From Tubulanus polymorphus (Eukaryota; Nemertea; Palaeonemertea; Tubulaniformes; Tubulanidae): a stretch of DNA of 64,000 bases. The position numbers and the translations under genes were made by a program. This document shows positions 2,840 through 43,459 of the stretch, in pieces (position 1 is the stretch's first letter; every line of letters starts with the position of its first letter). Below the pieces are notes generated by a model. The model worked only from the letters and a program-made list of their open reading frames with translations. It ran no database searches and had not been told where the DNA came from. The DNA lies in NCBI RefSeq assembly GCF_964204645.1, contig NC_134031.1, positions 5,563,001 through 5,627,000 on the forward strand, written 5' to 3'.

Positions 2840-2940
2840 TATTATCATTTTTCTATGGAACAATATATGATCTGAACTTTTCGTCAAAATACAATAATCG
2901 TTTGTCATCATTGGTTTTTTCTAATTCGCTTGATAAGCTT

Positions 2941-3915
2941 CTATCCGGTTTTAATACGTTCCATCGTAAACGGATCTGTTATCGATTCAGAGCTTTCGTA
3001 CACGCCTCGCGCGTCGAGTTCCACGTTCTCGAGTACTCGCGTTTCGACCATCATTTCACCTGAGAAACTTCTGCGAACGAACGGAATGAAATCTTTCAAC
3101 TGGACGCAAGGCGTCGACTCCTGAGTTAATTTAACCCGAAACTTTCGACTATAAGTCAACGAAAAACAGTTTCGTAGATTATCGCCGAATTCGTTTTGTA
3201 GGATGGCTAGAGAATTACGCGGTGCGTTGTAGTATTTATCCCCTAGAGGTCGCTGGTGGCTGGGCATGAGATCCTTCAATTCGTGAATTATTTTTGCTTC
3301 ATCTGCGTTGACAACTGTCCAAACATGCGTGACATTTTTGTCGTAAAATGTCACCTCCAGATACGGCCATGTACATTCAGTAGTAAGCCTAATAAACTGT
3401 ACATTATTTGGCGCCCTACAAAACCGAATGCGGGTACCTACAACAACTGCTAGTCTTTTCGCGACGTTTCGTAACGCTTTTAACAATTCAGATTTGTAGG
3501 CGATGTCCACTAAAATCTCAATGCCATCTGCCCACGGTAGAATATCATGATGCCTCCACGAACCCAGTAAAGTCCACGAATGCATCACCCACGGTATTCC
3601 AGCACGTTCGGCGAGAAACGAAAATTCGTCTAATTTGGATTTCGTCGACCAGAGTTCTTTGTGCGTAAAATACGTACGCTTCAGAATATTCGGTAGTTCA
3701 TTATGGATGGTTTTGATGACGGGTCGACGTTTTACAGTATCGGGTTTGCGAGGCTGGAATACCGGTACCAGGAGTGCACCGGACAAGTCGTTACGTTCCG
3801 ATTCCGCTGATTCTTCATGAATTGATCCGTACGTCCGGAAGACGATATAGACGATCAATGCGCATAAACTCCATTTTACGACTGCTTTCACTTTCCTGAT
3901 TTTCTTGATCAACAT
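2941..3915 (-). CDS. LicD/fukutin-like type II membrane protein, copy 1
   Basis: The product is 324 residues. A basic N-terminus is followed by one hydrophobic segment (about residues 12-29), suggesting a type II Golgi/ER anchor with a lumenal domain. Residues about 90-130 contain GIPWVMHSWTLLGSWRHHD followed by ILPWADGIEI. This resembles the LicD/FKTN/FKRP nucleotidyltransferase family core (G-x-LLG-x-x-RH...PWDDD-x-D), whose members transfer phospho-alcohol groups to glycans. The family acidic cluster is altered here: the DDD position reads A-D-G and the last acid is E. A C-terminal GDNLRNCFS stretch is also LicD-like in feel. This start is chosen because the paired copy shares it, giving equal lengths, and because a TTTTAG acceptor-like site lies 16 nt upstream, implying an intron in the 5' UTR. 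The copy at 8213 differs at about 17 residues. Family membership is fairly likely; activity is uncertain. Confidence 0.75.
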   Translation of the reverse strand: MLIKKIRKVKAVVKWSLCALIVYIVFRTYGSIHEESAESERNDLSGALLVPVFQPRKPDTVKRRPVIKTIHNELPNILKRTYFTHKELWSTKSKLDEFSFLAERAGIPWVMHSWTLLGSWRHHDILPWADGIEILVDIAYKSELLKALRNVAKRLAVVVGTRIRFCRAPNNVQFIRLTTECTWPYLEVTFYDKNVTHVWTVVNADEAKIIHELKDLMPSHQRPLGDKYYNAPRNSLAILQNEFGDNLRNCFSLTYSRKFRVKLTQESTPCVQLKDFIPFVRRSFSGEMMVETRVLENVELDARGVYESSESITDPFTMERIKTG

Positions 3916-4009
3916 TCCGATAGTGTTTTTCCTAAAACGGAAAGTCGATGCACGGTTGAATTTGATTTAACTAACGAATCGAGTCGTACAGTTATTAGTT
4001 GAATTCGAA

Positions 4010-4110
4010 CCCCGGTTTCGCTCCCGGGCAGGTGTAAGGGTCACACCAAATACAAATACAAATACAAATACATATCAAATCAGATCAAATCGAGTAGATA
4101 AGAGGAAAAC
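4010..4110. repeat. Short repeat with (CAAAT)n tail
   Basis: Has the block GGTTTCGCTCCCGG, then a CACACCAAATAC junction and several CAAATA units. Related pieces occur at 7690-7790 (the equivalent place in the other palindrome arm, opposite strand), 35630-35690 and 38165-38230. The tandem A-rich end suggests a SINE or LINE tail. Confidence 0.5.
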
Positions 4111-5118
4111 TCGTCCCTATTTCGGGATCAAAATTTTATTCGAAACATCAACTCGATTTATATATGAATAAGAGCGGGTCCGCCGTTATTAAAGATACAT
4201 AGTAGGTAATAGTAGATACATAGAAATGCATAGTATAATATATAGTGAGATCATTACATCGTTTAATGCATTTATATGCATACGACATAATATACCTATA
4301 TATACATAATCATTATCTACAGAATGAAAGAATGAATAAAAAATAATGAATAAAAGAATGAAAGAATGAATAAATCAGCGGTGATGAAAAATTCTCGCAT
4401 TACTTACACACACTGCAAATGAAGGTGTTTTATTCCGCGTACGGAGGCTTCAAATGCGAAATCAACCAAGAGAAACGCGTTTATGAGGAAATTAAGGGTA
4501 TATGCAGCTGTTGTTACTTATGAAAAAGTCACAATATATGTTACTTGTGAAAGAAACAATATATGTTGGAGACACGTGTTCTGCTGTTTGAAAGGCTTGA
4601 TGAGGGCTTGGATGAACCATCCCCTGTTTCAAGCCTTCCGTTTTGTATGTTGTCTAAGATTTGCAATCACAGAAAACTAAGCATCGGGCCGGCAACTGAT
4701 CAGATCATTTGCTTATAGGCGACTGAGATGTGAAAACCATAGCAAATATTCTAAAAGGCAAAAGTCTCGGTTCTTTTGCTTTGCTTTAGTAAGGTGCGCC
4801 ATGTGTTGTTGACTAATGGCGGATATCACCCTAACCTTGGAGTAATCAGACTGAATTCCTCCGAGCCCTAACTAACAAGCGTCGCTCGTAGCCGCAACCG
4901 AGTTTAACTATGTATTCTCAAACAATGGACTCATTCGCGAAGTCCATGATTTAATCATAGCATCCTCGCTGGAGCATGCATGTACGACGCTCAAAAGAAG
5001 TACAGGAGCAGCTTGAGCAACTCACTGGCCGGAGCTGGAAATGTTGATGGTCGCGATGGTCAAAACCTGAATTCTGTAGCTATTCCACAAAGAATAAAAA
5101 CACAACAAATGAATTTCA

Positions 5119-5252
5119 GGGCCCAGTTTCACGAAAAGGTTTAAGCCTAAAATGGTTTAGTTTGAATTGTTTGTCCTCATTGAAAACATGAAGTAACCCA
5201 TGGCAATTACACCAAAAATTTAGTTTAACTTTAGTTGTGAAACTGGGTCCTC
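5119..5252. mobile_element. Short TIR element (MITE-like)
   Basis: Ends are inverted: GGGCCCAGTTTCAC at the left and GTGAAACTGGGTCC at the right. There is no coding content. It belongs with other elements here whose ends read like GGGCC-x-GTT-x-CA (18648, 46840, 49793, 51205). Confidence 0.65.
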
Positions 5253-5744
5253 AATAGTTTTGGCCGGGTTTGTCTCTGGTTTTAGTTTGGAGCGTTTAAC
5301 TATGGTTTGAATGTTGGTTTGGTATTTACAGTTAACTCGGCTCGGCTGAGCTCGTAATTTTGGGGACCGGTGATTTCTGAGACCTGCCCCTGAGAATCTC
5401 CTCTGCCAGGATGCGACCTCGATTGAAACTCGATACCGACATTTGGCATGCGCGGTTATCTGAGACACTATCAAAATATCAATATCAATATCAATAGCCC
5501 TGTTTTGTTGACCAAAGAGCTCATCGTTGCTGAAGTTGCTATCATTTCTATAAGAAACCAAGTAATTATCTCTACACGATTTAACCTGGTTCTGTAAGGG
5601 TTTTTATGTGTATGGGAAAAGATAGTGTGAGCGCGATAGCGCACACTAGATGTGTGCTGGTGCGCACACTGACTGCAATGGCTCGGGTTACAAGGAGGGA
5701 ATATGTTGATAAGAAAGAGCAGCATTTAGCAACTATATTTAATA

Positions 5745-6112
5745 TGTAAGGACTTTTAAGGGATGATTAGTGTAGTAAAGGAGGCAGTAGAATGGAAGTA
5801 GCCAGGATTGTTAATACCAAATAGGGTAAGGATAGAAGCGGGTGAGGTTATGGTATAGGAATGTAAAGAATGTACCAAATAGTATATAAGTCTAAGGTTT
5901 TTGGTTCAGGGAGAGTACAAAAGAGAGTACATGAGAAAGAGAGAGAGTACTAAAAGACAATTGGAGAGATAAAGCTGAAGTGTAAGCAGTAGAGAGAAAA
6001 TAAAGAAAAGCTTGATCATACCAGATAGAAGTGTTAGTAGTTAATATCTACATAAGGAAGAGGCAGGTCAGCAAAAGGAACCAGTTAGTGAGAAGAACGA
6101 GGTGACATAACA
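5745..6112 (+). mobile_element. Candidate solo LTR
   Basis: The segment starts TGTAAGGA and ends CATAACA, so it has TG...CA ends. Internally it has a TATATAAG box (about 5884) and AATAAAG (about 6000) in LTR order. The sequence directly after it (GTGGTGGAGGTGGTATCCC) could be a primer-binding-site-like remnant. No gag/pol frame is present. No second LTR and no target-site duplication were found, so a solo LTR is an inference. Confidence 0.4.
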
Positions 6113-6544
6113 GTGGTGGAGGTGGTATCCCATTACAATAGTGGAAATCGTAGTACCGTTACAGTTCCCACTTGTTATAAAACTTTGCGTTTCAATTATT
6201 TGTAAATCAATTTTTTTTCAGTCAATCCCCAGTGCTCTTAAATTTATGACATTATGGCTCTTGAAAGTGAAACTCTGCCAGAAATGGAAATGATCTGCAT
6301 GGTCAAAATGGTACAACACATTAAAGACAGATAAACACTAGGTTGAAAATGGTTGGCTTTCTAATAGTATTTAGCCCCAATTTCTGACTGCTAGAGTTTT
6401 GTAAATACGATACTGATTGTTCTCATTGTATGGTTTTTTTGCAGCATGAAATTTGTCCAATAGAACAGTTTGAAAGTTGATCAAAGATTGAATAATGTTT
6501 GATTATTTGGTGTTCTATACGGTAACTACAAAACTCTTATGAAA

Positions 6545-6770
6545 TTCCCACTTTCGTTTCTGCGCGGTAAAATTCGTTTCTTCGCGGCGAGGAAACGGGC
6601 GAAGAAACGAAGTTCGTTTCGGCGGGTCGCCGAAACGAGAAATCACCGCGAAGAAACGCGCAGAAACGGGCGCAGAAACGAAGGTTCGTTTCTGCGCCTG
6701 TTTTGGCGCGTTTCTGCGCGGTAAATTTCGTTTCTGCGGCGCGCAGAAACGGACGCAGAAACGAAGCTAT
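6545..6770. repeat. Cluster of inverted GTTTCTGCGC motifs
   Basis: The stretch is built almost entirely from CGTTTCTGCGC, CGTTTCTTCGCGG and their reverse complements GCGCAGAAACG and GCGAAGAAACG, in mixed orientation. It could form many alternative hairpins. The open frames running through it are composition artefacts. No family is recognised. Confidence 0.75.
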
Positions 6771-7795
6771 ATATTTTTATATTGCACGGATTTTTTTTTT
6801 AAACTTGGCCCGAATCAGCCACCATAAACGACAGGTAGGCAACGATCTCCAGTTATATTACGGCCATGCTCATATGCGGTTCTCTTTTGAGCAACTAAAG
6901 CTGTACGTCATCTAGGGAGGATGTTAGTTATATGCTTGGTTGCGGCTACGAGCCAAGCTCGTAAGTAACTGTGATATCCGCCAATGTGCGCGCTCCATTG
7001 ATCAACAACACATGGCGCAACTTACTAAAACAAAGCAAAATGACCGTGACTTTGGGATGCTTGCTAGACGAATATTTTCTATAGATAACACATCTCAGTA
7101 GCCTCACTAAAGTCTATCCCAGTTATGACCGCGGCATTTCACTCTCAAAGAGCCAGTATCAACAACAATTTAATCTAGCAAATGTTCTCATCAGTTGCTG
7201 GTCCAGTGTACGCATAGCTCTCTGTTATTGAAAATCTTTCACGCCGTACAAAACGGAACTCATCGAAACGGGGGGGGGGGGGTGGTTCATCCAAGCCTTC
7301 GTCCAGCTTCAAGCAGGGAAACATATGCCTCCAACAAATATGTATCGTTCATTCGGTAACGGCTGAATCGCCACAGATTTCCCCCATTAATACGTGTCAC
7401 TTGTTCATATCAACTTCACATTAAGTAGTGTCCGTACGCGGAATAGAATACCACAATTTGCGGTATATTTACGTAAGTAAATGGGTGGATTTTTAATCGC
7501 CGCTGGTTTTTATTATTCATTCTTGCATTCATTTTGAATAATTGCATTAAAATAATGATTATGTATATAGGTACATTATATCGTGTGAACTCATTAAACG
7601 ATGTAATGATTTCGCTATTATCTTTCATAATCGGCGGAATGGAAACTCAGATCCGCTGTTTCTCAATATTTAGATAGAAATGATATTTTGAAAGTGAAAT
7701 AATTCGTGAAGAAAAAAATATCTTTTTTTCCTCGTATCTACTTGCCTTAATTTGATTTGATTCTTATTTGGTGTGTCCCTTATAAGCGAAATCTG

Positions 7796-8135
7796 GGTTT
7801 AACCCATCCTCGCTTGGCAGAGTTTGATTACCGCCTGCCGAAACCACTCCAACACAAACCCTGGCCGCAAACGCTTCATTGGTCTATTACATTGCCCAAG
7901 ATTTTTCGGGTTGCCGCTAGGCGGCCATCAGTCTATGAATTAAGGCAATCGGATGAGTGTTTTTCACCGGCAGATTCGCTACGCATCTGATTGGCTGGAT
8001 ATATAGACTGGTAGTCCCTTGGCGGCAACCTGTACGCCCAAGAAATCGTGGGTAGTGTAATATACCAATGGTTTGTATTGGCGTGAGTTTCGGCGAGCGA
8101 TAATCGAGCCCTGGCAAGCAAGGATGGGTTTAACC
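7796..8135. mobile_element. Foldback element inserted in the right palindrome arm
   Basis: The element has long inverted ends: GGTTTAACCCATCCTCGCTT at the left, and GGTTAAACCCATCCTTGCTT when the right end is read in reverse. The similarity of the arms continues inward past TTGCCGCxAxG to CAGTCTAT, about 150 bp per side with gaps. The corresponding place in the other palindrome arm (about 3970-4010) lacks it. That empty site marks it as an insertion made after the duplication, or lost from the other arm. Confidence 0.75.
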
Positions 8136-8212
8136 GATAAGTGAACTCGATTCGTAGTTAAATGAAACTCAACCGAGCATCAACTTCCCGTTTCAGGAGA
8201 AACACTATCGGA

Positions 8213-9187
8213 ATGTTGATTAGGGAAATCAGGAACGTGAAAACTGTCGTAAAATGGAGTTTATGCGCATTGGTCGTCTATATCGTCTTCCGGACGTACG
8301 AACCAATTCACGAAGAATCCGCCGAATCGGAACGTAACGACTTGTCCGGTGCACTCCTGATACCGGTATTCCAGCCTCGCAAACCCGATACTGTAAAACG
8401 TCGACCCGTCATCAAAACCATCCATAATGAACTACCGAATATCCTGAAGCATTCGTATTTTACGCACAAAGAACTCTGGTCGACGAAATCCAAATTAGAC
8501 GAATTTTCGTTTCTCGCCGAACGTGCTGGAATACCGTGGGTGATGCATTCGTGGACTTTACTGGGTTCGTGGAGGCATCATGATATTCTACCGTGGGCAG
8601 ATGGCATTGAGATTTTAGTGGACATCGCCTACAAATCCGAATTATTAAAAGCGTTACAAAACGTCGCGAAAAGACTAGCGGTTGTTGTAGGTACCCGCAT
8701 TCGGTTTTGCAGGGCGCCAAATAATGTACAGTTTATCTGGCTTACTACTGAATGTACATGGCCGTATCTGGAGGTGACATTTTACGACAAAAATGTCACG
8801 CATGTTTGGACAGTTGTCAACGCAGATGAAGCAAAAATAATTCATGAATTGAAGGATCTCATGCCCAGCCACCAGCGACCTCTAGGGGAAAAATACTACA
8901 ATGCACCGCGTAATTCTCTAGCGATCCTACAAAACGAATTCGGCGATAATTTACGAAACTGTTTTTCGTTGACTTATAGTCGAAAGTTTCGGGTTAAATT
9001 AACTCAGGAGTCGACGCCTTGCGTCCAGTTGAAAGATTTCATTCCGTTCGTTCGCAGAAATTTCTCAGGTGAAATGATGGTCGAAACGCGAGTACTCGAG
9101 AACGTGGAACTCGACGCGCGAGGCGTGTACGAAACCTCTGAATCGATAACAGATCCGTTTACGATGGAACGTATTACAACCAGATAG
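8213..9187 (+). CDS. LicD/fukutin-like type II membrane protein, copy 2
   Basis: A 324-residue partner of the gene at 2941-3915, about 95% identical (about 17 differences, seven of them in the first 31 residues). It has the same single N-terminal membrane anchor and the same LicD-like core with the altered acidic motif (W-A-D-G-I-E). An ATG at 8162 would add 17 residues. However, it lies upstream of a TTTCAG acceptor-like site at 8191-8196, and the equivalent ATG is ATC in copy 1, so the inner ATG at 8213 is preferred. Coding DNA is nearly identical to copy 1 even at silent sites. Residue differences that change charge include R-to-W in the middle of the domain. The role is inferred to be Golgi glycan modification; substrate unknown. 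Confidence 0.75.
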   Translation: MLIREIRNVKTVVKWSLCALVVYIVFRTYEPIHEESAESERNDLSGALLIPVFQPRKPDTVKRRPVIKTIHNELPNILKHSYFTHKELWSTKSKLDEFSFLAERAGIPWVMHSWTLLGSWRHHDILPWADGIEILVDIAYKSELLKALQNVAKRLAVVVGTRIRFCRAPNNVQFIWLTTECTWPYLEVTFYDKNVTHVWTVVNADEAKIIHELKDLMPSHQRPLGEKYYNAPRNSLAILQNEFGDNLRNCFSLTYSRKFRVKLTQESTPCVQLKDFIPFVRRNFSGEMMVETRVLENVELDARGVYETSESITDPFTMERITTR

Positions 9188-9389
9188 AACCGTACAAATG
9201 AATTAGAAAAACCAATGACCCCGAATTTTGATGAAAAGTTAAAGAGTTAAGATGATTTTAGATAGAAAATGTTATCATATCAATTGAGGTTGTCCGATGA
9301 TGTAAATTACTTATTGGTTTCGGCCAGCCAGATCACAATGTTCCACAAAAGACATAGGCTATAAGGCTATCAATATTGTTTTCTTTTAT

Positions 9390-10042: not shown

Positions 10043-11041
10043 TCATTTTCGATTCTTCCCCATTCTTACTAAATTGTTCGCCGTCGCTCTGAAGTTGGCG
10101 TTGACCAAATAATAGAGAATGAAATTGACGCAAGAATTTAGAACGGACGTGATGTTATACACGGTGTTAGCCACTTCTATTTTACTATCGGTTATGTATT
10201 GATAGATTTTCGAAACGCAACCCGGAATTTCGAACAGCAGAAATACGACGCTCATCGTGATCACCATTTTCGTAGCTTTCGATTCGGACAGTTTGGAGCT
10301 CGGTCCCGCGTTCGTCATATCTTCACGCTCTTTCAGTTTAACGTATAAGACAATCAAAAGAAGAATATTTGCGATGAAAACTAGAAACGTCGGTATAATT
10401 GCTCGGAGTATGGGATCGATCAAGAAGTTGAACATCGCGAAAATCTCGTGTTGAAACTTAGATCTAAAAGTAACTTCTTCGTCGACACAAATATATTTAT
10501 GCAATACAACAACAGTGAGCGTAGCTGGGTAATACATTCCGAAACCTACAGAAAACGATCCTAGAGCAAATATTACAACTTTAAGACGTGTTTTGGTCAG
10601 AATAAGTCCCGCTGTCAGTGGCATTAAAATCGTAATGAGCCTCTCGACCTGTATCAAAACGGTAAGCCAGTTCCTCATCAACAGGAACGCTTTGTAGAAG
10701 ATCACCGAACCGATGTAGATCCGCGGTTCGACGTTCCACGGAAAATACCGCGCCATCCCCTCGGTCCCAACCCTGCTGTGCAACAAAAAATACCTCAGCG
10801 GTTCTAGAATGAACTGTATTATCAAGAATAGGTTATCGGTGATCGCTAACGTCGACAGCAGAAACGCCGAACGATGGTCGTATTTCAAACGAACAAAAAC
10901 GACGAGTGTCAACGAATTAGACACGAACCCAACGATGATAAACGGCGGTAGAATATAGGCGTTCATCTGCCAACGACCGTCGTTTTGAGTCCAACATTGC
11001 GCCGTATCGTTTACAGGGTCATACCACTCTTCTTCATACAT
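10043..11041 (-). CDS. Rhodopsin-family GPCR, neuropeptide-receptor type
   Basis: From ATG at 11041 the product is 332 residues and has seven hydrophobic helices. The N-terminus is short and carries an NDT glycosylation sequon. TM1 contains IIVGFVSNSLTLVVFV (the GN motif reads S-N). TM2 contains LAITDN. After TM3 the DRY box is replaced by V-E-R. TM6 carries FEIPGC. TM7 carries NFILYYLVN in place of NPxxY, followed by a short tail NANFRATANNL, as in peptide receptors. It should be a plasma-membrane receptor coupling to G proteins. It resembles the FMRFamide/TRH-receptor-like receptors expanded in lophotrochozoans, but the ligand cannot be inferred. The frame stays open to an ATG at 11185, but those 48 residues are basic and unlike a receptor N-terminus, so the inner start is preferred. 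It appears intact as a single coding exon. Confidence 0.85.
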   Translation of the reverse strand: MYEEEWYDPVNDTAQCWTQNDGRWQMNAYILPPFIIVGFVSNSLTLVVFVRLKYDHRSAFLLSTLAITDNLFLIIQFILEPLRYFLLHSRVGTEGMARYFPWNVEPRIYIGSVIFYKAFLLMRNWLTVLIQVERLITILMPLTAGLILTKTRLKVVIFALGSFSVGFGMYYPATLTVVVLHKYICVDEEVTFRSKFQHEIFAMFNFLIDPILRAIIPTFLVFIANILLLIVLYVKLKEREDMTNAGPSSKLSESKATKMVITMSVVFLLFEIPGCVSKIYQYITDSKIEVANTVYNITSVLNSCVNFILYYLVNANFRATANNLVRMGKNRK

Positions 11042-11189
11042 GGTTTTGCAAAATATCGAAATCGTCGAGCGCGTATAGTACGTTAAATGTCTGAAACGGA
11101 TTAATGAAAGTTCTAAAGGTTTCTGTTCGTGGGGTGAAGTAAATAGGTCTATCGTGCGAAGTCGTAATCGGAGCAGATTCAACAACTAT

Positions 11190-39560: not shown

Positions 39561-42560
39561 TATATAGATCTGATAGATATGAAGCAGTGATGAGATCATC
39601 CGAGGATTTAGAATGCAGCCACTTTTCACGTATATGATAAGGGTGGTGATGCCACCACTGAATCTGCGTTTATTCAAGCGCAATACGAATTTTTTCCAGC
39701 TTCCACAGTTAAGCGTCGATTCCCCCTTAATCTAGCAGACATTTATAGGAGAAAATCCGCGTCCAACTTTCGAGAACACTTCATGTCATCAACCCGAGGC
39801 ATCGAGTGCATTAGTGTCTTCATCGCTTTTGCCGCATCGGCGACGGTTTTTTACATATCGAGAAAATTTAACGAAATTCAATTCAGCGAGAAATCGTTGC
39901 CCTCGGAGCACGCGAAGTAAATGAAAGCGAAATCTCATTTTGCGTTCCCTATGCATCGGTACGTCTACCCGGTGTAGTGCGTCAGAAACTTCATTTGCAG
40001 TCACATTTTTTGGCCGGTTATTCCGACGAATTGAGTAGATGCCGTATAAAGAGAGATGGCGAACTCACCCCGGGCCCATCGTGAACCAGTTTACAAGAAA
40101 AATCATGATTAGTTTGCCCTAACCGGCGACGACGAAATTGAATCTCGACCCAGACATAAGTCTGATCAACCTGAGTCAGTCTAGATCAAGACTGTACAAA
40201 CCAAACCCTGGACTAGTTTTCTATACAAACCAGACCCTTGCCTCATTTTCTATATCAGAGAAGTAGAGATTTTCGAAAAGCGTTTTCTCTATTTTGCATT
40301 CAGTTGCCGCATCAATGTTTTTCGATGTTTCGGGCTAAATAACCTACGGAAAAAGTGAACTGTTATTATACATTTGATTATTTCGATGAATTCAACAATC
40401 GTGGAGCTGAGCGTTTTATTCTAGCGAAAGCAAAAAGGGTTCAGAAGAAGTCAGTACGACGCTGAATATGAAATATTCATAAGTATATCGAGTGTACGTA
40501 TCTTTGAGCTGAAATGTGAACTGGTATTGAACCTCTCAATCTCCTCCTCCCGTATACTGCGCCGTCACACGACTCAGATCGCAGTCTGCAACTGTTACTT
40601 CTAGCAAATTACCACAATATTCCCAAGAAGGTAGCGAAAATAAAAATACCGGTGCGGCGCGAGTTAACTGTGCCGACGCTCCGGGCTGCTGTAGGGAATA
40701 TTTCCATTAGGTTGATTGCCACAAATTGCCATCGATGTTAAATACCACGAGGGACACGACGTGAAAATATATATCCTTCGCGTTGCTCCGGTGGTGTTGG
40801 ATTTTAAGGTGTGGCTTTATTGATAAAAGGTTTTACTTTTGGCAATTCATCTACTTAATGTATTTGAAATGATTCCATTACGGAACGGCGTTGACGCACG
40901 CGGTCAGGCTATTTGAAACCACTCGGAGAAAATGGTTTCATTATTTGCAGGGAGCGATTTCAAGAAATTCCTATAACTTCCAGATATTCGTCAAACGTAC
41001 CGGTATGGTTATCACGCTACTCGCCTCAGCTCTGTTGAGAAAAGTCCCTAGGGATCACATCGTTAGTCTTTCCTTTAACTGAGATCCCTATCTAACTTCA
41101 TAATTTCTGCAATTTCGGAAGTTTTCTCTGATTCGTAATTTCGATGCTGTTGATTTGAGTCATTTTCTAGTCTTTCATTCGATCATTACGTATTCATACA
41201 TTCGCGCCGATTCCCCGCGTGTTCTTCAACAAGACGTTCTCGGAAAACATCCCGCGCGCTCGCCGGTAGCCTTAGAAACGGATAAAAACAGTTCTGTTAT
41301 CCCGCAACCATATCTAGCACCGCGGAAAACCTGGCTTGATCGTGCCAGTGAATTCATGCTCCATTCAATTTGCTCATAAATATTTTATCAACTGCCGTCG
41401 ACGTCGAAATGTACAGGATCAGATCTAATCACGATGGATGTCGTACAATGATAGAAAAAATCGTCCCTAAATCAATATGGCCGCCAGGCAGTCTACCACG
41501 ATAACTGTGATGGAATCTAAATTGATTATTTCTACGAGCGATACAGAGGAGGTCCCTTCGTATGATGGTCCCTGAACTGATTTGATTTCCAGAAACTGTC
41601 AAAGAATTTTGACACGAAATTATTTGATATCGGAGAGGTATAAATTCTCTATATGGATTACCTATATTAAATAATAGACAGAATCCGTGTTACCTTAAGT
41701 TGACAAATTCTCTGACATGCCTTGTTCGGTGTTGGAAATCGAAATTCGACCAAGAAATGACTCGCTGCGAGTTGTGGGCTTGGAGAGTGATTTCCAATTA
41801 TCTTCGAAAGAGTCGATTTCATTTTGTGTTATCGTCTGGGATTCTGACAGTACAATTTCATAGCACTAGCATACGAAACATCTTCGCGCGAGCTCGGGTC
41901 AGAACTTCAGTACTTCGTCCTGAAGTACAGTAAACCTCGTCTTACTCGGACTTAGCCGACTCGGGACTTTTGACTAACTCGAAATAAAAGCGAAATCATC
42001 TTACTGACTCACTAACGTATTCATTTTCCTTACCCTTTACTTGAACTTCGTTTACCTCGGACCGATTTTGCTGGTCCAAATTGCTGGTTTCTCTGCCGCT
42101 ACCCCACAAAAATAATTCAAATGCTAGGTACAGCCCTGGGTTGATTTCGTTTTTATTCCGACGATAAATGCTACTGTGCTAATACGGATATGGTCCATGA
42201 TTAATTAAAGGCAAAATTCACAGTGGAAACTGAAACCAAGTTTTAATCAAAACCTCTCAGAAGAGTCCGTACACGGATTCATTCATTATACAGCTATTCA
42301 TTACAACCCAATCTATTCCTTAATCATCTTTTTCGAAAGTGTTTCTTAGACTAGTTTAAAATGCGGGAAACGTAAGAGCTTATCATTCCTTTTTTGATTT
42401 AGCCATTCAAACTGGTAAAATCTGCGATGTTCTTCTACACAAGGAACGAAATTTTCCGTCGACACTAACGTATCCTATCTCCGCAAAGGTTCTTATGCCC
42501 GTAGTCGATTATCAAGATTAAGATTATCAGGCTGAAAACGTAAGTCTTGTGAAGATTCAT
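39561..42560. other. Intergenic, no gene
   Basis: No supported gene. ACAGTAAACCTCGTCTTACTC near 41928 resembles one end of a pogo/Tigger-like MITE, but no matching second end was found. Confidence 0.4.
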
Positions 42561-43459
42561 CCATGGATTCAGCATGGGATCATACTTTATCTAATTTCAG
42601 CCATGGGTTCACCATGGGATTACTTAGCTTAATTTCAGCCATGGGTTCACCATGGGATCACTTTTTATCTAATTTAAGCCATGGGTCCACCATGTAATCA
42701 CTCTTTATCTATTTTCTTTCAGCCATGGGTTCACCATGGGATTACTTAGTTTAATTTCAGCCATGGGTTCACCATGGGATCACTCTTTATCTAATTTAAG
42801 CCATGGGTTCACCATGGTATCACTCTTTATCTAATTTCAGCCATGGGTTCACCATGGTATCACTCTTTATCTAATTTCAGCCAAGGGTCCACCATGGGAT
42901 CATTCTTTATCTAATTTAAGTCATGGGTTCACCATGGTATCACTCTTTATCTAATTTCAGCCATAGGTCCACCATGGGATCACTCTTTATCTAATTTAAG
43001 CCATAGGTTCACCATGGGATCATTCTTTATCTAATTTCAGCCATGGGTTCACCATGGTATCACTCTTTATCTAATTTCAGCCATGGGTTCACCATGGGAT
43101 CACTCTTTCTCAAATCTAAGCCATGGGTTCACCTTGGTATCACTCTTTATCTAATTTCATCCATGGGTCCGCCATGGGATCACTCATTATCTAATTTCAG
43201 CCATAGTTCCACCATGGGATCACTCTGCTTAATTTCAGCCATAGTTCCACCATGCGATCACTCTGCTTAATTTCAGCCATAGTTCCACCATGGGATCACT
43301 CTTTATCTAATTTAAGCCATGGGTTCACCGTGGAATCACTCTTTATCTAATTTCATCCATGGGTTCAGCATGTGATCACTCTTCATCTAATTTAAATGGG
43401 ATCACTCTTTGTTTAATTTCAGCCATGGATCCATCATGGTATCACTCTTTATCTTATAG
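42561..43459. repeat. Minisatellite of about 23 units, 40-bp unit
   Basis: The unit is CCATGGGTTCACCATGGGAT followed by CACTCTTTATCTAATTTCAG. Most units are exactly 40 bp; four are 38 bp and one is 44 bp. Units often alternate between GGGATC...TTTAAG and GGTATC...TTTCAG types, giving a partial 80-bp higher-order repeat. Each unit starts with a small inverted pair, CCATGG-GTTCA-CCATGG, and ends in a TTTCAG that looks like a splice acceptor. Since 40 is not a multiple of three, the frames running through it are not conserved protein repeats. Confidence 0.95.

Follow-up and report, generated by a model that had tools for sequence, protein, structure and literature searches.

An inverted duplication in Tubulanus polymorphus with decayed non-coding arms and closely alike LicD/FKRP-like genes

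Two closely similar genes lie back to back in a 64,000-nucleotide stretch of the Tubulanus polymorphus genome, each within one arm of a large inverted duplication. Such arrangements can be kept intact by exchange between the arms, and the locus raises the question of whether this palindrome is maintained as a whole or whether only its genes have stayed alike. The whole stretch analysed (the window; G000:C7:5563001-5627000) has a GC content of 40.5% and contains no N. Searches beyond it covered the genome assembly of 267.8 Mb in 77 contigs.

Extent and composition of the mirrored structure

A blastn comparison of the window with itself aligned positions 2908-3984 with 9218-8145 on the minus strand, at 95.7% identity over 1077 columns. 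Further mirrored pieces followed in order towards the centre (4065-4109/7726-7770, 4238-4445/7431-7621, 4595-4682/7212-7307, 4717-4751/7070-7104, 4761-4819/6995-7053 and 4871-4902/6935-6966). Aligned alone, the inner arms gave a local score of 305. Chance likeness was ruled out, as 60 random 1-kb stretches of the window compared with the same arm reached a mean of 54 and a maximum of 74. Gap-tolerant alignments, read by eye, placed the limits of homology near 2870/9245 on the outside and at about 4910/6930 on the inside; the outer flanks beyond could not be aligned.

The preliminary description had the mirror running from about 2840/9285 inward to about 5000/6880, with arms of over 2 kb, a spacer of about 1.9 kb and one outward-facing gene in each arm, and had proposed self-comparison and arm alignment among its checks. 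Both analyses bear out this architecture; the coordinates were nearly right, the ends are corrected as above, and the two genes correspond to open frames at 2941-3915 (minus strand) and 8162-9187 (plus strand). The features are as follows.

2870..4910 (approximate ends), minus strand: left arm of the inverted duplication, with mirrored homology to 6930-9245
2941..3915, minus strand: left coding region, an open frame of 324 aa, LicD/FKRP-like, with altered catalytic residues
4719..4815, no strand assigned: dispersed stretch in the inner left arm, with its mirror near 6995-7104
4911..6929, no strand assigned: spacer of about 2 kb, containing three dispersed-repeat matches
6930..9245 (approximate ends), plus strand: right arm of the inverted duplication, longer owing to an insert
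7796..8135 (about 340 bp), no strand assigned: transposon-like, dispersed insert bounded by terminal inverted repeats and confined to the right arm
8213..9187, plus strand: right coding region, an open frame of 324 aa from the ATG common to both arms

The highly alike part of the mirror spans only about 1.08 kb. In the remainder, identity falls to ~80% where sites align, and gap columns are roughly as numerous as aligned ones. The right-arm insert belongs to a large family of dispersed elements (a first look at the genome gave 580 candidates, of which 40 were scored), and spacer stretches at about 5599-6096, 6164-6553 and 6555-6826 also match dispersed repeats. The possibility that each inner arm is merely a copy of a dispersed repeat was checked by searching the genome with 4374-4960, and was rejected: only about 4719-4815 proved to be dispersed, matching nine other places at 75-90% among the matches listed. 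For its neighbours 4548-4713 and 4376-4445 the partner arm was the sole match among the 13 listed (11 candidates scored), which makes the arms look like a genuinely duplicated unit.

Other repeats were recorded alongside. The spacer piece 6555-6826 is similar to a unit of 154 bp, tandemly arrayed elsewhere in the genome, at G000:C6:17977400-17991900 (L040, L041) and G000:C9:9551900-9554500 (L042). On the strand evidence of the better-scoring matches, these arrays form several facing pairs, <1 kb to about 18 kb apart, as in foldback-type elements. A single frame of at least 150 aa was found in L040 and L041, with no Pfam match at E <= 0.01. Within the window, positions 42556-43454 hold a tandem array of about 900 bases (self-match offsets near multiples of 40 bases), and 586-782 a short inverted-repeat element whose ends read CTGCAGTATGGCGGCTGATAAGG or near it.

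Inverted near-identical blocks are a familiar hazard of genome assembly, and the mirror could in principle arise if a single copy had been placed twice, once in each orientation, or if two haplotypes had been joined. Such an artefact is the least probable of the explanations considered here. The two frames, both open, show 39 differences in 1026 sites, and no third copy was found in the assembly. An assembly inversion is likewise unlikely because the arms are separated by indels, by the private insert and by 18-23% divergence of their non-coding parts, and because their outer flanks are unalignable.

Divergence within and outside the coding regions

The coding regions (2941-3915 and 8213-9187) are about 96-97% identical and align without gaps. 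The right open frame begins further upstream, at 8162 (341 aa), with an ATG that is absent from the left arm; the ATG at 8213 is common to both. Sixteen bases 5' of the common ATG, a pyrimidine-rich stretch ending in AG is present in both arms, which makes a non-coding exon upstream plausible. Over the longer frame (342 codons) there are no gaps, and 7 of the 39 differences fall in the 51 bases before the common ATG. From that ATG onward the 32 differences comprise 15 synonymous and 17 nonsynonymous changes, giving a dS of 0.069 and a lower dN of 0.023 (Fisher p 0.0045).

The non-coding arms tell a different story, with 145 of 788 aligned sites differing in the 5' part, alongside 770 gap columns, and 18 of 78 in the 3' part. 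A maintained palindrome would be near-identical throughout, non-coding DNA included; these arms instead differ at 18-23% of aligned non-coding sites and contain many indels. The same contrast was seen at silent sites. Beyond codon 50 of the longer frame only 5 of 128 fourfold sites differ, compared with 163 of 866 sites in the non-coding parts (Fisher p 3.4e-6). Silent coding sites closer than the flanking non-coding DNA are a mark of Amy-type pairs, though they occur in weaker form in five of six control pairs too. The locus is thus a decayed inverted duplication and not a maintained palindrome.

Differences between the two copies are crowded at the 5' end: in the longer frame, the first 150 bases contain 17 and the remaining 876 contain 22 (p 8e-6). 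Seven of these 17 precede the common ATG and may be non-coding; when the 51 bases are left out, the counts are 10 of 99 and 22 of 876 (p 7e-4). The crowding is strong for nonsynonymous differences (p 4e-5) and weak for synonymous ones (p 0.03), so it may mark the boundary of a converted tract or, alternatively, an N-terminus under relaxed constraint. As it is expected at a tract edge, we counted it in favour of gene conversion. The longest identical run measures 184 bases, with a p of 0.015 if differences were scattered uniformly across the frame as a whole. With GC3 at 0.47-0.48 and coding GC at 0.44-0.45, no strong codon bias is apparent in the pair.

We favour, at a probability of roughly 60%, an old head-to-head duplication whose coding parts have been kept alike by purifying selection together with occasional ectopic gene conversion. 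A single-frame LicD/FKRP-like gene would have been duplicated long ago in inverted, head-to-head orientation. The non-coding parts of the arms would then have drifted apart and acquired transposon-like inserts, with purifying selection on the protein holding the coding parts at their present likeness and occasional ectopic conversion between the copies leaving a trace confined to the coding region.

Maintenance of the arms by recombination between them had been suggested from the outset. That suggestion stands insofar as a large inverted duplication with a gene in each arm is present; it fails for the arms as a whole, which are unmaintained and have gained or lost many segments. If arm-to-arm recombination acts here, it is restricted to the coding regions. 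Preservation of the entire palindrome, with the inverted structure itself functional as proposed for pairs in Caenorhabditis, would fit a divergent inverted pair with alike genes, but is very doubtful given non-coding arms that are decayed, gapped and interrupted in one copy by the insert. Among the Caenorhabditis inverted-repeat paralogous pairs, as far as the portions of PMC1803023 drawn on here describe them, divergent homologous genes likewise surround an inverted intergenic region. Many of those intergenic arms exceed 95% identity and the inverted layout is conserved among species, whereas the intergenic arms here have decayed and come from one genome. Two of the arms described in that source are less alike, at 83.4% and 81.6%; the latter, a C. 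briggsae case, is broken by a 153-nt insertion and in this resembles the arm with the insert here.

On either side, similarity drops off near the coding region, and each gene is one open frame; both features would also suit a single event, one conversion or retroposition that copied one coding region over the other, in place of repeated exchange. We consider this improbable: the differences are spread over the frame, so that the event would have to be fairly old, and the copy sits in register within older mirrored arms, which is unexpected of a retrocopy.

Comparison with other pairs of the family

The most serious competitor of conversion plus selection dispenses with conversion altogether. 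The coding regions would be alike through selection on the protein with some constraint on silent sites, and the non-coding DNA would change faster through indels, repeats and alignment noise. We therefore set the palindrome beside seven other pairs of the same gene family, picked from close pairs in this genome, of which six had at least one alignable flank.

In this comparison the palindrome differed at 5 of 136 fourfold sites and 89 of 508 flanking sites. The corresponding counts were 9/88 and 160/797 for L016/L018, which lie on the same strand about 14 kb apart, and 10/120 and 171/785, 9/110 and 80/458, and 12/108 and 73/435 for three overlapping pairs of the same-strand cluster L026. For L024/L025 they were 7/106 and 24/169. 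Only L014/L015, on different contigs, diverged more at silent sites (27/84) than in the flank (128/520). The ratio of fourfold to flank divergence was therefore 0.21 for the palindrome, the lowest value among all seven pairs for which a flank could be aligned, 0.38-0.66 for five controls and 1.31 for the sixth. Against two pooled control pairs (L016/L018 and one L026 pair, leaving out the two overlapping L026 pairs, L014/L015 and L024/L025) the odds ratio of the palindrome was 5.6 to their 2.6, a non-significant difference (z 1.4). The more diverged close pairs L019/L022 and L028/L029 stood outside the flank comparison.

The seventh control, a same-strand pair at G000:C4:4421824-4427361 (L038), had no alignable flank when one was looked for. 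It shares an 834-base block at 95% and has strongly diverged N-terminal parts, with a dS of 1.3 over the initial 60 aligned codons and of 0.02-0.11 from codon 120 onward. From this profile the pair is a candidate for domain-limited gene conversion. L024 and L025 (G000:C11, about 1.1 Mb apart) similarly share an 829-base block at 95%; their 3' flanks are homologous, and no homology was detectable between their 5' flanks. Coding- or domain-limited similarity is thus not peculiar to the inverted layout. Other family pairs, same-strand ones included, show a comparable if weaker contrast, so the palindromic layout lacks a demonstrated causal role.

These controls cut both ways. Reduced fourfold divergence in five of six controls suggests that non-coding DNA is perhaps simply faster here, and part of the contrast may be general to the family; nor is the palindrome significantly apart from the pooled pairs. 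On the other side, its ratio is the most extreme, and L014/L015 indicate that low silent divergence is no rule of the family. Strong codon bias is not apparent in the pair, and alignment minimises non-coding differences and so works against the contrast. We infer gene conversion, rather than silent-site constraint or fast non-coding change, as the cause. An origin without conversion is on balance unlikely, yet it stays viable because of the control pairs and because the comparison is confined to one genome.

The encoded proteins and their place among known systems

The genes had been called LicD-like. Single-sequence comparison with Pfam LicD (PF04991) supports this weakly, at E 0.088 and 0.089, with both copies at 13.3 bits and below the cut-off of 22.6. 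Support came from their paralogues: the pair is homologous to proteins of the same genome that match Pfam LicD at E <= 0.01. The family comprises at least 36 frames (36 matches among 40 scored candidates, including both copies, the 34 others being recovered from genome loci), and more distant members may have been missed by the genome search. Of the 36 members, 34 match LicD at E <= 0.01. Since the right-arm protein was unmatched at this threshold and the left-arm protein had E 0.088, the two members without a match are the palindrome pair itself. When all 36 proteins were combined into a profile, FKRP was matched across the nucleotidyltransferase core at E 4.9e-16. By sequence, both proteins are best described as divergent representatives of a LicD/FKRP-like family. 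Searching the genome at the DNA level recovered the two arm copies and no third, and the next-best protein match shares 33% identity. The family tree, rooted for display only, places the pair next to L009, weakly supported (82/47), on a long branch (2.18).

According to the portion of PMC6965139 drawn on here, FKRP requires Asp360, Asp362, Asp364 and Asp416 for activity. At the aligned positions each copy has A, G, E, E, and W stands in place of the conserved Gly in the hG[GS] motif; in these residues the pair departs from the nucleotidyltransferase-fold phosphotransferases of the LicD family and FKRP. All four Asp are kept in 32 of the 36 members. L009 keeps one and L035 two, and the palindrome pair alone lacks all four, so that neither copy has the residues of an active LicD/FKRP-type transferase. 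By analogy with FKRP the aligned residues would be catalytic in these proteins too, and ordinary catalysis has likely been lost in the pair, possibly in favour of an altered activity. Because dN is below dS despite the lost Asp residues, the genes may be a conserved pair of pseudoenzymes. More tentatively, we suggest that the pair, with all four Asp and the hG[GS] Gly replaced, may be pseudoenzymes of the nucleotidyltransferase fold, or transferases whose active site has been rebuilt, and may be evolving in concert within a decaying palindrome, as if the dosage of a LicD-like protein without catalytic activity were preserved. Within the literature collection searched, no paper turned up on an expansion of LicD and fukutin in invertebrates or on LicD pseudoenzymes; one LicD orthogroup is given as 'depleted' in a molluscan comparison (PMC8059625).

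Of the 24 window frames of at least 110 aa, 13 were scanned with Pfam. A frame for an Srw/rhodopsin-type receptor adjoins the palindrome at 10043-11185, and ten other long frames gave no Pfam match at E <= 0.1. Rfam at its gathering thresholds had no match within the window.

The closest parallel is with the palindromic Amy pairs of Drosophila, for which a coding-limited mode of gene conversion is described in the part of PMC3924832 used here. Like Amy-p and Amy-d, the present genes are linked paralogues in mirror orientation. For the palindromic Hsp70 pairs of Drosophila ongoing conversion is reported, but the portion of the account drawn on gives no limit to coding sequence. Conversion in Amy and Hsp70 is backed by orthologues in several species and by shared substitutions or polymorphism, whereas one pair in one genome is compared here; the gene family also differs, and the present genes apparently lack catalytic residues.

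The structure is real, and its explanation is of a known kind and largely ordinary. The same-strand pairs of the family provide internal controls, within one genome, for an effect of inversion that is so far undemonstrated. More unusual is that two genes under purifying selection have apparently lost their active site.
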